The position numbers and the translations under genes are program-made. Below are positions 1,890 to 6,360 of a stretch of 20,004 nucleotides of DNA, one piece after another; position 1 is the stretch's first letter, and each line of letters opens with the position of its first letter. The notes under the pieces are model-generated. The model was not told the DNA's origin. It saw only the letters and a program-made list of their open reading frames with translations, and did no database searches. The DNA comes from Chromera velia. Its lineage: Eukaryota; Sar; Chromeraceae. Location of the stretch: positions 1-20,004 of the forward strand of contig JAHBMJ010001030.1 in assembly GCA_018398765.1 (NCBI GenBank). Direction: 5' to 3'.

Positions 1890-3622
1890 ATGACCTCACA
1901 AGCTACAAGATCGTCAGTCCTTCTTCCCTTTCACTGAGTCTCCTCAAATCTGCAAGATACGATCATGCAGCATAGTGGATGCATGTCTCTTCTTTATTGC
2001 GTGAATGCATGCAGATTTCTGGCCAGTAGCCTGATTGACGGTGTTTGGGGACACGCTTTGAACCACCCCGAAGCCTTCGGACTGATCTTCGGAAAGCTCG
2101 AGGACGGCGCGTACTACATTCACCAGCACACGACCTTCCCCTCCGTTCGGACTGCAATTCTCCGGGGCGGCTCCAAGTCCACTCTCTTGAACTTGTGCAG
2201 AAAACAAGGGTTTTCTGCACCCGAGGACAGTGAACTGATAGGATGGTACGCAATCGGAAAGGAGCCTCAGCTCAAGGAGGTGGAGATCCTCGCAAAGGTC
2301 TGTCGGCAGCTCTGTTGGCATGCATGACCCATGCAGTACAGAGAGATATGCGAATAGACATACCGATACAGAGCTGCCCCGGATCGAGTGAAGCATTCTT
2401 CTGATATCTTGATCAGCTCTCAATGTGCTCATTGACCTCTAACCCCTCTTACTTTGCTTGTTTTTCCAAGTTGCAGGGTAAAATCACCCCCCCCCCGCAC
2501 TGCACATTTACATATACACACATCCATAATACAATTCGTGTGATAATGCATGGAAACACAGACGCACACATGGGCAGTTCCAATGCATGAATACAAGCTT
2601 GAGACAAGCCTCTTCCTGTGTTCTGTTTGCAGTTCGAAACAATTTGTCCCCAGCCCTGTTTGGTCCTGGTGAGCCCACATGAAGGGAAGATCGGAATCTT
2701 CGGTCGATCCACAAGCCCCCTACCGAAGGAAATCTCCTCCCTCGCTGCCTCCCCCACTTCATTCTTCATCCATCTTCCCTCGGAGACGCAGAGCCCCACA
2801 AGCAACTCCAGTGCAGCTTCCAGCAGCAGTAGCAGCAGCAGTTCCTCGAGTACACCCGGAAGACCCAGAGGAGGCTGGGGGGGAGCTTTCTTCCCCCCAC
2901 CTGCCTATGGAACCACCTCGCCCTCGAACACCTCCCCACCCCCCTTTGGAGCTCCACCCGCTTTTTTTGGTGCGAAGGGGTACCACCCAATGCACTTTCC
3001 CTCACCCTTCTCCTACGGACCCTGGGGGTTCTACGGGGGCCCAGGAGGAATGCCGGGGCCCTACGGGGTCCCCCCTGGGTACGCCTACGGACCGGAGATG
3101 TATGAGGGGGGGGCAGCCGCCTCAAGTGCACAGCAGCCTCCCTCGGCAAACCGCTCCCTCTCTGCCCCCAACAGGGGTCTCTCCCCTCAGGTAGGTCGCA
3201 AGCCTGCAGGGGCGGCGCGTGCTTCTCAAACGAAGGGACAGGCAGCAGCTCCTCCGCAAAGAGCAACCGCAAGAGCCCCTACCCCCTCAGCAGTGAGCAT
3301 CCGAAAGACCAACAAGAACCACGGGCTTGCCCCTCGTACACAGGCCAAACAGCGTAGTCAGCCCTCCTCAGCAGCCGTAGCCGGAGCCCCAGTGGTCACT
3401 CGTTCGGGAAGGAAGGTGACCCGTAGCGTCCGGATGGAGGAGGACTTTCTGATGGAGGAGGAGGAGGCGTATTTTGAGGGAGAAGGGGCAGAAGCAGAGG
3501 AGGATATCGATGGAGAGGACCAGACGCTGGAGGAAACCCAGAGGGCCAGAGACAAAGCCAAACAGTCCGAGCTACCTCCCGACAACGCACCCTGGACAAC
3601 AGAGGCTCTACGAAAGTACCAG

Positions 3623-3657
<35 letters not shown>

Positions 3658-3724
3658 GGTCTGTCTGTCTGTCTGTCTCTCTGTCTGTCTGACGATATAG
3701 TCTGTCTGTTTGTCTGACGATATA

Positions 3725-3756
<32 letters not shown>

Positions 3757-3757
3757 C

Positions 3758-3822
<65 letters not shown>

Positions 3823-3838
3823 TTATCTATTTGCCTGC

Positions 3839-3869
<31 letters not shown>

Positions 3870-3887
3870 CGTGTCTGTGTGTTTGTG

Positions 3888-3926
<39 letters not shown>

Positions 3927-6360
3927 ATGTATGTATGTATGTCTGCATGTATCTCTCTCTCTCTCTCCCTCCCTCTCTTTGTGTGTGTGCATGTGCGTGC
4001 GTGCGTGCGTGTGTGTTTGTGTGTGAGGGAGAGAGAGGGAGGGAAGGAGCACTTTTCTTCTGCTGTCAACTTGTGCATTGCTGTCAACAGCGTGGATACG
4101 TAGACACAGACCCAAAAGCACACATGCACTCCCTGGCTGATCCCTATCCGTTTAATTGTAGAGGTTTCTTCTTCTAGTCTCTGCAGGAGCACGTGTGCAG
4201 GATGTGACTCTCTTCCTCCTGACCCAATGCCTTGTCTTTGATGAATCAAGATTTCAGCATCTGTCATTCCAACACATATCGATATGCACATACACAAACA
4301 TGTACATTCACATGCACGTATATCATGATCGAATCGTATGGATTCAGGTCCCCGGAGTCCGATGGGACCCCAAACACGGCGCCTGGGTGACACAGTGGCA
4401 CGAGGACGGGAAGCAGAGATCTCGGCGTTTCTCTGCAGGGGTGTTCGGGCTTGCGGGAGCCCTCAAGGCTGCGCGGGAGTGCAGGGTTGAGATGATACAG
4501 CAGGATGGCGTCAGAGTGAGGTCGCGTGCAGCCATGCAACCCCTACTCAAGGATAAAAGCCACCTCTGCAGCCTCAGGTCGGTGCGTGCGTCGAATTCTT
4601 CTTCTTCTTCTTCTTCTTCTTCTTCTTCTTCTGCTCCTCCTCCTCCTCCTCCTTCTTCTCCTTCTCCTTCTTCTTCTTCTTCTTCTTCTTCTTCTTCTTC
4701 GCCTTCGCTTTTGCTTCGCCTTCGCTTTTGCTTTGCCTTCGCTTTTGCTTCCCATGTACTGTCTCTCTACCTGTCTCTATATTTTCTGAGGGACCACAGT
4801 CACCTCGATAGTCTTCCGACGGGCTGTGTCCACACATTCTTTTTTCGAGGGGCTTCTTGCATGGTTTCCTTTCTGTTCTCTTCTGCATTCTCCGACCATT
4901 TTCTCTCGCTCCCTGACAGTTTAAGTCATGCGAGTGCATGGTTGACTTCAGTGTGAAATGCAGAATCGTCATGCAGTCACTGTGCGCTTACAGAATTTCT
5001 GACTTTGTGTGTACGCTTTTGTCTCCCTTTGTGAATCTAAAGGCATCATCCCTTATCACGTACATCATCATTTCTACATATGTATGCATGCATGCATGGT
5101 TGCATGTGCAGAAGCACCGGAGGGAGAAGATCAATCCGGGATCAGCCCAGAGGAGTCCTGCTGGGAGGGCGTTTCCCTTCCTCCTCTGCCTCTGCCTCTG
5201 CAGTGCCCCAGGGCCCGTCGAGAGGCCCCCGAGCTTCCACGGGGGGATCTCGAAGACGGATCGTGAATCCCTCCGAAATTAAGAAGTCTCTTCGGGGAGG
5301 TAGCGCTGCCGCTGCTGCTGCGGTTCGTGCCTCTGCAGGGAAGGGGATGAAGACGGAAGAGGAGGATGAGGAGATGCGTGAGGCCGGCACGGGGGAGGCT
5401 GACCTGACAGCAGGGGCAGCCAGTGTCTCTGCCCCCCATCCACCTCGTTTCTCCATTCCCCTTGGGAGTGAGGAAGAAGCCGAGAAGGGACCGCTGCAAG
5501 TGGATGAAACAGAGAAGTCCTATGAGAGCCCCATCAGGGGTGTCCGTTGGAGTGCCCAGAGTGCGAGTTGGGTGGCTTCTTGGCAGATTGAGAAGGGGCA
5601 GCAGAAGGAGATTTATTTCTCCTCCGCTGCCTATGGTTTCGATTCAGCAAGGCAGCTTGCCATAGAAAAGAGGAAGGAGCATGAAAAGGACGGCACTGCC
5701 AAACCCCCCCGGAAGCCCGCCCGTCCGATGGCAAACCCCTTTGCAGAGGGTGAAGACGACGAGGACGAGGGGGAGAATCTGATGGAGGAAGTCCCCCTTC
5801 GTTCCCCTTCCCGACAGCAACCAAAGCCTTTCAACAAAGACCCAGACCCAGATGAAGACCAGAATGCAGCACCCATGGCTGGCCAGGAGGATTTGCTACT
5901 TGAGGAGGGAGAGGAGGAGGAGGGAGGCACAGAAGGGCCCCCTCCCGCGAAACCCTCCAGGCTCACAGATGTCTATGCAGACCGGGCACGAGCCCTCGAT
6001 ATGTCTGAGCCTTCTGTCTCGAGGAGGTCAAATGAAGAAGAAGGAGACGACACCGGACGGCAGTCTGCAGGAAATTCGGATGGCTCTACCCAGCTTTGTC
6101 TCTCATTTTCTTCTGAAGACCAGAAGCCAGAGTGCAGAGGTGAGGGGGAGAAGGGCGAGGAAGGGTGCGGAGGGAAAGGGAATGAGGGTGAGGAGACACG
6201 AGACAGTGCGACCAAGACGGAAGAGACAATTGCAGAGAGGGGCGCAGGTATCTTCCCTTTCCGTCTTCCTGTGAAGGGAGAAGGGAAGGGAGAGGGAAGC
6301 GGGAAGGATACAAATGCAGCAGCTGGAATGCAAATGAAAGCAGGAGAAGCCAAACAATAA
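1890..6360 (+). CDS. Two-AP2-domain protein with N-terminal MPN-like region (5 exons)
   Basis: The proposed model is exons 1890-1912, 2015-2297, 2633-3622, 4348-4577 and 5112-6360. They total 2775 nt (924 residues plus TAA), and every junction is phase-matched (phases 2, 0, 0, 2). Donors are all GTCNGT (gtcagt, gtctgt, gtctgt, gtcggt); acceptors are gcatgcag, gtttgcag, gattcag and atgtgcag. The start was chosen because CTTCAAAATGACC is a good alveolate start context and its phase fits; an in-frame alternative is the ATG at 1965. By residue the order is: MPN-like 8-129, poly-Ser 165-178, Gly/Pro/aromatic-rich about 179-262, basic region, acidic stretch about 370-402, AP2-1 433-481, AP2-2 648-703, and an acidic Glu/Gly-rich tail. 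No signal peptide or membrane segment is seen. AP2 domains imply nuclear DNA binding, probably as a transcription factor. Exons 3-5 are firm, exon 2 is good and exon 1 is tentative. Confidence 0.75.
2015..2713 (+). other. Abraxas-like pseudo-MPN domain (residues ~8-129, split by intron 2298-2632)
   Basis: The region reads as an MPN (JAB/PAD1) fold. An N-terminal hydrophobic strand is followed by [15 protein letters not shown], matching the E-x-x-G-L-x-x-G strand of MPN domains. Later, [12 protein letters not shown] occupies the place where active JAMM enzymes have GWYHSHP. A final CLVLVSP strand is encoded at the start of exon 3. The metal-binding HxHP is absent, so the domain would be a non-catalytic MPN-minus. 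GWY followed by a charged helix resembles Abraxas (FAM175), the scaffold of BRCC36 deubiquitinase complexes. The fold assignment is by eye from memory of the family, so it is an inference; the domain could be lineage-specific and unrelated. Splicing exon 2 to exon 3 places the last strand where the fold needs it. Confidence 0.42.
3623..4046. repeat. Compound TCTG / TGTA / CT / GT / GA microsatellite
   Basis: Imperfect TCTG units run to about 3925, followed by TGTA units, a CT run (about 3951-3970), GT/GC-rich units and a short GA run. Near 3691-3728 a 25-bp segment beginning GACGATATAGTCTG is tandemly duplicated. The whole array is intronic. Plus-strand ORFs reading VCLS repeats and minus-strand ORFs reading DRQT repeats are by-products of the repeat. 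Confidence 0.93.
3623..4347 (+). other. Intron 3, dominated by TCTG microsatellite
   Basis: This is a phase 0 intron of 725 bp. The donor is the first GTCTGT of the TCTG array and the acceptor is gattcag at 4341-4347. Joining gives LRKYQ/VPGVRW, so exon 4 begins exactly at AP2 domain 1. If the intron is retained, translation runs 25 codons into the repeat and stops at 3698-3700. Confidence 0.75.
4348..4494 (+). other. AP2 DNA-binding domain 1 (residues ~433-481)
   Basis: The 49-residue segment shows the ApiAP2 pattern. [17 protein letters not shown] gives the first two beta strands with the conserved Trp residues, then a [10 protein letters not shown] strand, then [19 protein letters not shown] as the C-terminal helix. 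The FSxxxFGxxxAxxxA spacing is typical of alveolate AP2 domains. It would contact DNA through the three-stranded sheet. It sits alone on the 230-bp exon 4. Confidence 0.85.
4578..5111 (+). other. Intron 4, containing TTC repeats
   Basis: This is a phase 2 intron of 534 bp with donor cag/gtcggt and acceptor tgcatgtgcag. Phase matching excludes the nearby stronger-looking donor gtgcgt at 4582, which would give phase 0. It also excludes the well-formed acceptor ending at 5203, which would need phase 1. Confidence 0.7.
4596..4751. repeat. TTC/TCC microsatellite followed by 17-bp tandem repeat
   Basis: TTC units with a TCC interruption near 4632-4660 run to about 4700. Three copies of a 17-bp unit (GCCTTCGCTTTTGCTT plus one base) then start at 4701, 4718 and 4735. 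The long poly-Ser, poly-Leu, poly-Arg and poly-Lys ORFs here come from the repeat. The tract lies inside intron 4. Confidence 0.92.
5527..5694 (+). other. AP2 DNA-binding domain 2 (residues ~648-703)
   Basis: [20 protein letters not shown] gives the paired strands with GVRW and the second Trp. [20 protein letters not shown] segment follows, with the FSxxxYGxxxAxxLA signature and a lysine-rich helix end. It is a complete ApiAP2-type domain about 166 residues after the first, and the two are clearly diverged (for example [12 protein letters not shown] against [11 protein letters not shown]). The intervening segment is Gly/Ser/Ala- and Arg-rich and then acidic. Confidence 0.87.

Follow-up and report, generated by a model that had tools for sequence, protein, structure and literature searches.

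A predicted two-AP2-domain protein of Chromera velia with an MPN-minus-like N-terminus of the Rpn8/CSN6/eIF3f kind

Within the proteasome lid, the COP9 signalosome, eIF3, and BRISC/BRCA1-A, MPN-minus domains occur as fixed halves, and ApiAP2 regulators are central in Apicomplexa, the lineage adjoining the chromerids. The present analysis concerns a predicted gene in the first 20,004 bases (the window) of a 36,569-base Chromera velia contig (JAHBMJ010001030.1; C1029), where the data support an MPN-minus-like domain that shares a single open frame with two AP2 domains. DNA-binding parts joined to MPN domains have been described. MYSM1 (SANT-SWIRM-MPN) similarly holds a DNA-binding type domain and an MPN domain within one chromatin protein, but its MPN domain is catalytic, its DNA-binding domain is SANT, and orthologues have been reported only in vertebrates (PMC7216186). 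MPND (RAMA and MPN) also combines DNA binding with MPN in one protein and has acidic regions, but uses a restriction-enzyme-associated DNA-binding domain and no AP2 (PMC9963953). ApiAP2 factors share with the predicted protein the AP2 domains, of which two exceed the Pfam cut-off here, but no paper among those searched mentions them together with MPN.

The original prediction for this locus was of an Abraxas-like, catalytically dead MPN domain fused to two AP2 domains. The motifs that it named were all present at the N-terminus, namely, EAFGLIFG (aa 27-34; pattern ExxGLxxG), GWY (aa 84-86) not followed by HSH, and, near the start of exon 3, a run of hydrophobic residues. Profile-profile comparison, one of the checks proposed with that prediction, bore out the MPN-minus part of it and not the Abraxas part. 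With a six-sequence profile of Rpn8, CSN6, eIF3f, and eIF3h, hhalign returned 93.6% for aa 1-165. The 93 aligned columns (aa 27-123) keep the register as far back as GLIFG and as far forward as aa 120-123, and the best of 100 shuffles of the same residues reached 0.6%. A four-sequence profile gave 92.3%. The Abraxas profile gave 1.1%, in the wrong register.

The HMMER results agreed. A profile of this genome's Rpn8 with human CSN6 and human eIF3f scored aa 1-165 at 22.0 bits, and the same profile plus eIF3h scored 23.3 bits; the best shuffles without and with eIF3h scored 4.4 and 4.6 bits (2000 shuffles) and 5.6 and 3.0 bits (1000 others). The six-sequence profile gave 24.5 bits, while none of 500 shuffles exceeded 1.9. 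With the Rpn8/CSN6/eIF3f/eIF3h profile, exons 1 and 2 alone reached 11.0 bits, matched by none of 1000 shuffles, compared with 24.6 bits for aa 77-165, which span the exon 2/3 join; hence, the signal grows where it should once exon 3 is joined. The alignment was gapless over that junction (aa 102/103). When 645 open reading frames of at least 60 aa from the window and other loci of the genome were ranked, only exons of Rpn8, Rpn11, and eIF3h stood above aa 1-165, Rpn8 and eIF3h themselves being part of the profile, and the best non-MPN frame scored 3.8 bits.

In a phmmer search of the PDB with the N-terminus, MPN proteins accounted for 8 of the 10 rows, comprising 8amz_U ("MPN domain-containing protein"; E value, 0.0015) and chains of CSN6, RPN8, and PSMD7 (E values, 0.65 to 1.3). 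The alignment with 8amz_U covered aa 81-155 without a gap, again across the exon 2/3 junction. This chain, which we take to be plant Rpn8, was also the best PDB match of the genome's own Rpn8. The top match, 8g8i (E value, 1.9e-6), was set aside as a repeat protein with six weak stretches summed, each with an i-Evalue of at least 25, and the last row, 1vqy_A (E value, 1.5), is by name not an MPN protein.

The zinc-binding HSH is replaced by AIG (aa 87-89), so that the domain reads as MPN-minus, and the E-xn-HxH-x7-S-x2-D pattern of MPN-plus (JAMM metalloprotease) domains is absent. The JAMM Glu is kept, with E27 aligned to the Glu of Rpn11, whereas this position of the ExxG strand is R or Q in Rpn8, CSN6, and eIF3f. 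The protein shares with these three the GWYxxG without zinc-binding histidines and the short loop after GWY, where it has no insertion relative to Rpn8; Ins-2 is described as extremely short in MPN-minus members (PMC9313428). It differs from them in its fusion to AP2 domains and in their C-terminal MitMem_reg domain, which Pfam did not list anywhere in the protein. By class, aa 1-165 scored 1.8 bits with MPN-plus and 0.8 bits with Abraxas, against the 24.5 bits given above. By single profile, aa 77-130 scored 17.2 bits with Rpn8, 8.4 with CSN6, 7.4 with eIF3f, 3.7 with Abraxas, and -0.6 with MPN-plus. Human eIF3h is counted as MPN-plus (PMC9313428), and the eIF3h of this genome reads GWYQC; the class result is independent of eIF3h, as the 22.0 bits obtained without it indicate. 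The data therefore support a putative N-terminal domain of the Rpn8/CSN6/eIF3f kind, not an Abraxas-like one, as far as an Abraxas profile of three vertebrate sequences can tell.

The AP2 part proved firm, as originally predicted. Pfam identified AP2 in two stretches of the whole protein (E value, 1.9e-22), and with PF00847 the first domain (exon 4) scored 54.8 bits and the second (exon 5) 39.4 bits, both passing the curated cut-off of 33.3. From these domains we infer DNA binding. Profile and protein searches of the genome covered 177.8 Mb in 4040 contigs. The exon 4 domain had the top score among the AP2 matches listed in the genome-wide PF00847 search, which numbered at least 56; a count of 136 apiAP2 genes has been given for chromerids (PMC4501334). 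Very long open frames (1523 to 3675 aa), each holding between five and seven AP2 matches, were noted on three contigs (C1232, C1325, and C1740).

The five exons (Table 1) give a single frame of 924 codons followed by TAA, with the junctions 2297/2633 and 3622/4348 and the continuous frame as described in the original prediction and a modelled 23-nucleotide first exon. All four introns are GT-AG, with donors GTCAGT, GTCTGT, GTCTGT, and GTCGGT in order and acceptors ending in CAG. Exon 3, in phase 0, is open for 330 codons, and none of 5000 base shuffles of it stayed open in frame. Its codon preference was +35.5 bits in its own frame, compared with -32.6 and -34.3 in the two alternative forward frames. 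The strongest 150-base windows began at 3353 (17.4 bits) and 3443 (22.5 bits); exon 5 scored +88.9. These values rest on a small training set, in which the training frame of one locus (L008) is probably not that locus's AP2 frame. The linker between the MPN-like part and the first AP2 domain is long and of low complexity, and the C-terminal tail has 52 acidic and 25 basic residues in 212.

Table 1. Features of the predicted AP2/MPN gene, with positions in the window
Feature	Position	Strand	Content
Exon 1	1890..1912	+	aa 1-8, with the start ATG; phase 2 at its end; modelled on GT-AG, donor GTCAGT
Exon 2	2015..2297	+	aa 8-102; MPN-like domain, first two thirds; EAFGLIFG at aa 27-34; GWY codons at 2241-2249
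Exon 3	2633..3622	+	Last MPN-like strands (2633 to ~2791), continuing in frame into a 267-aa linker (aa 166-432)
Intron 3	3623..4347	+	Starts with (GTCT)n microsatellite, 3623-3945; least secure join
Exon 4	4348..4577	+	AP2 domain 1, aa 433-482, DNA 4348-4497
Exon 5	5112..6360	+	AP2 domain 2 at DNA 5533-5679; then the acidic tail at the C-terminus; stop codon TAA

The donor pattern GTC(A/T/G)GT was common to all four sites (1913, 2298, 3623, and 4578), one of which opens straight into the (GTCT)n microsatellite. Intron 4 contains (TTC)n and 17-base tandem repeats (4596-4751). Elsewhere in the window, a 68-base unit is repeated in tandem in 4.4 copies at 1-301, and seven further open reading frames had no Pfam match above cut-off (one match, at an E value of 0.011, was under its cut-off).

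Computation shows that the frame is open, that two AP2 domains and an MPN-minus match are present, and that the zinc-binding histidines are lost. The probable explanation is a 924-aa AP2 transcription factor that begins with an MPN domain of the Rpn8/CSN6/eIF3f kind, catalytically dead and presumably serving to dock or pair with a partner, and continues with the linker, the two AP2 domains, and the acidic tail.

Several points weigh against this explanation, the first of which lies at intron 3, where the microsatellite is a place at which the assembly could misjoin. The connection of exon 3 to the AP2 domains across this GTCT intron is the weakest link, and an unlikely alternative is that two adjacent genes, one for an MPN-minus protein (exons 1-3) and one for a separate AP2 factor (exons 4-5), have been linked by the model alone or by misassembly of the microsatellite. 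Arrays of this kind are hard to assemble, and the Chromera genome paper names low-complexity regions as an assembly difficulty (PMC4501334). The exon 3/4 splice is a prediction from DNA sequence, and upstream of exon 4 the AP2 frame stays open as far as 4162 and contains ATGs. However, this upstream extension has no coding preference (-3.1 at 4162-4347), and exon 3 meets no stop before the microsatellite; read-through would end after 25 residues, mostly CLSV repeats, and codon preference at 3623-3700 was -9.3. The donor and acceptor of intron 3 also fit, with phase 0 on both sides and no in-frame stop, and there is no N within the gene span. The start of the second AP2 domain, which no intron interrupts, can be aligned with the end residues of exon 3 and exon 4 taken together, a mild point for the join. 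A genome search with the linker end and first AP2 domain gave 40 matches, beginning with the window itself and continuing with AP2 domains elsewhere, which did not settle it.

The remaining points concern the N-terminus. Nearly all of the MPN signal is concentrated in aa 77-130, and in codon preference the exon 3 windows starting at 2633, 2723, and 2813 were negative, with no positive value before about 2900. Pfam listed no JAB/MPN family for aa 1-166 (max_evalue, 10), and the gene was not listed in genome-wide searches with PF01398 (JAB), which missed BRCC36 as well, or with the CSN6 and eIF3f proteins. Since Pfam and the genome-wide JAB model were silent, routine annotation would miss the MPN part. 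With MPN-minus profiles, the N-terminal half alone did not stand out from shuffles, 324 in 1000 of which scored as well, and anchored tests of it were matched by 45 of 300, 110 of 200, and 46 of 200 shuffles; its alignment back to GLIFG was obtained by hhalign only. With an MPN-plus profile, aa 8-60 gave a borderline 3.9 bits (2 of 500 shuffles as good). An AlphaFold model of exon 2 alone, with no alignment supplied, had a low-confidence predicted local distance difference test score of 51.5, and fold searches with it (Foldseek and VIA-align) gave no clear match and had no MPN chain among the matches listed. The genome search turned up no paralogue of the MPN part. In addition, deubiquitinase activity has been reported for eIF3f, likewise MPN-minus (PMC2990700), so that "dead" is a reading of the residues.

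In view of the concentrated signal, the silence of Pfam, the shuffle-level N-terminal half, and the low-confidence exon 2 model, the N-terminus might not be an MPN domain at all, with a 45-residue stretch around GWY resembling MPN-minus by chance. This appears very unlikely, given that aa 77-130 scored 27.6 bits with the Rpn8/CSN6/eIF3f/eIF3h profile, against 5.3 for the best of 500 shuffles, and that the hhalign alignment runs in register well beyond that stretch at both ends. The elements of the exon 2 model, for all its low confidence, are ordered helix-strand-strand-strand-helix-strand, the order described for the MPN fold after its first strand (PMC9313428).

A further alternative is bound up with the other MPN proteins of the genome, which were searched for exon by exon, so that absences are weak evidence. 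The PF01398 search gave five matches at four genes, read from their translations as Rpn11, Rpn8, eIF3h, and Prp8, of which PDB searches back the Rpn11 and Rpn8 identities only. A protein search revealed a BRCC36 homologue in four matched pieces (C3540:21087-22413, within the locus C3540:19800-24500), one with GWYHSHP. The CSN5 search returned only Rpn11, eIF3h, and two weak rows; the CSN6 search, only Rpn8, eIF3h, and one weak row; the eIF3f search, only Rpn8, eIF3h, and Rpn11; and the Abraxas search, nothing beyond one row at an E value of 8.35. PF13012 (MitMem_reg) matched once, on the Rpn8 contig, and PF18323 gave no signal, in any control either. BRCC36 is thus a catalytic-type MPN protein with no recognised MPN-minus partner in this genome, which makes it a candidate partner of the present protein by elimination only.

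The MPN part could accordingly be truly Abraxas-like, the missing pseudo-deubiquitinase partner of the genome's BRCC36, an enzyme whose activity requires KIAA0157 or Abraxas (PMC4579573). Abraxas and Abraxas2 (KIAA0157) are also MPN-minus with GWY, and aa 77-130 gave the weak Abraxas score noted above (1 of 500 shuffles as good). Over aa 1-165, in contrast, the Abraxas score was at or near shuffle level: 25 of 1232 scored shuffles (2000 made) were as good or better, and 13 of 1000 and 4 of 500 in further sets, as well as 1 of 100 by hhalign, were as good. Abraxas membership was therefore rejected and appears very unlikely, with the qualification that a profile of three vertebrate sequences makes an insensitive test and that a divergent Abraxas could escape an exon-wise search.

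For an AP2 factor with a dead MPN domain of the Rpn8/CSN6/eIF3f kind, the mode of action may be sketched by analogy. MPN-minus proteins act in complexes with MPN-plus proteins, as in Rpn8-Rpn11, CSN6-CSN5, and eIF3f-eIF3h (PMC9313428) and in KIAA0157 or Abraxas with BRCC36 (PMC4579573), and the MPN-minus domain here would pair with another MPN protein or dock in a complex. The AP2 domains would bind DNA at target genes, and the factor would thereby bring its partner, possibly an MPN-plus deubiquitinase, to those genes; alternatively, it may itself be controlled by such a complex. Possible partners encoded in the genome are Rpn11 and BRCC36, the latter with HSHP. It is conceivable, though doubtful, that the factor's own pseudo-deubiquitinase half pairs with one of these catalytic MPN proteins, so that one polypeptide would aim ubiquitin editing at chosen promoters. 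Nothing ties the genome's BRCC36 to the AP2/MPN protein, and recruitment of a BRCC36-type complex is only a possibility.

The original prediction also presented the combination of the two domain types as one not known to it from any described protein. Literature searches found no paper with both "MPN domain" and "AP2 domain" (JAB and Mov34 wordings with AP2 were not covered) or with both "ApiAP2" and "MPN", and the main text of the chromerid genome paper, supplements aside, contains neither "JAB" nor "MPN" (PMC4501334). Within the literature searched, the pairing of AP2 with MPN appears new, while the joining of a DNA-binding part to MPN is already known from MYSM1 and MPND. The architecture was predicted from the DNA of one genome. 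If true, it would mean that a pseudo-deubiquitinase domain has been released from the large complexes and that the choice of promoters is coupled physically and directly to the ubiquitin system, probably in a lineage neighbouring Apicomplexa.

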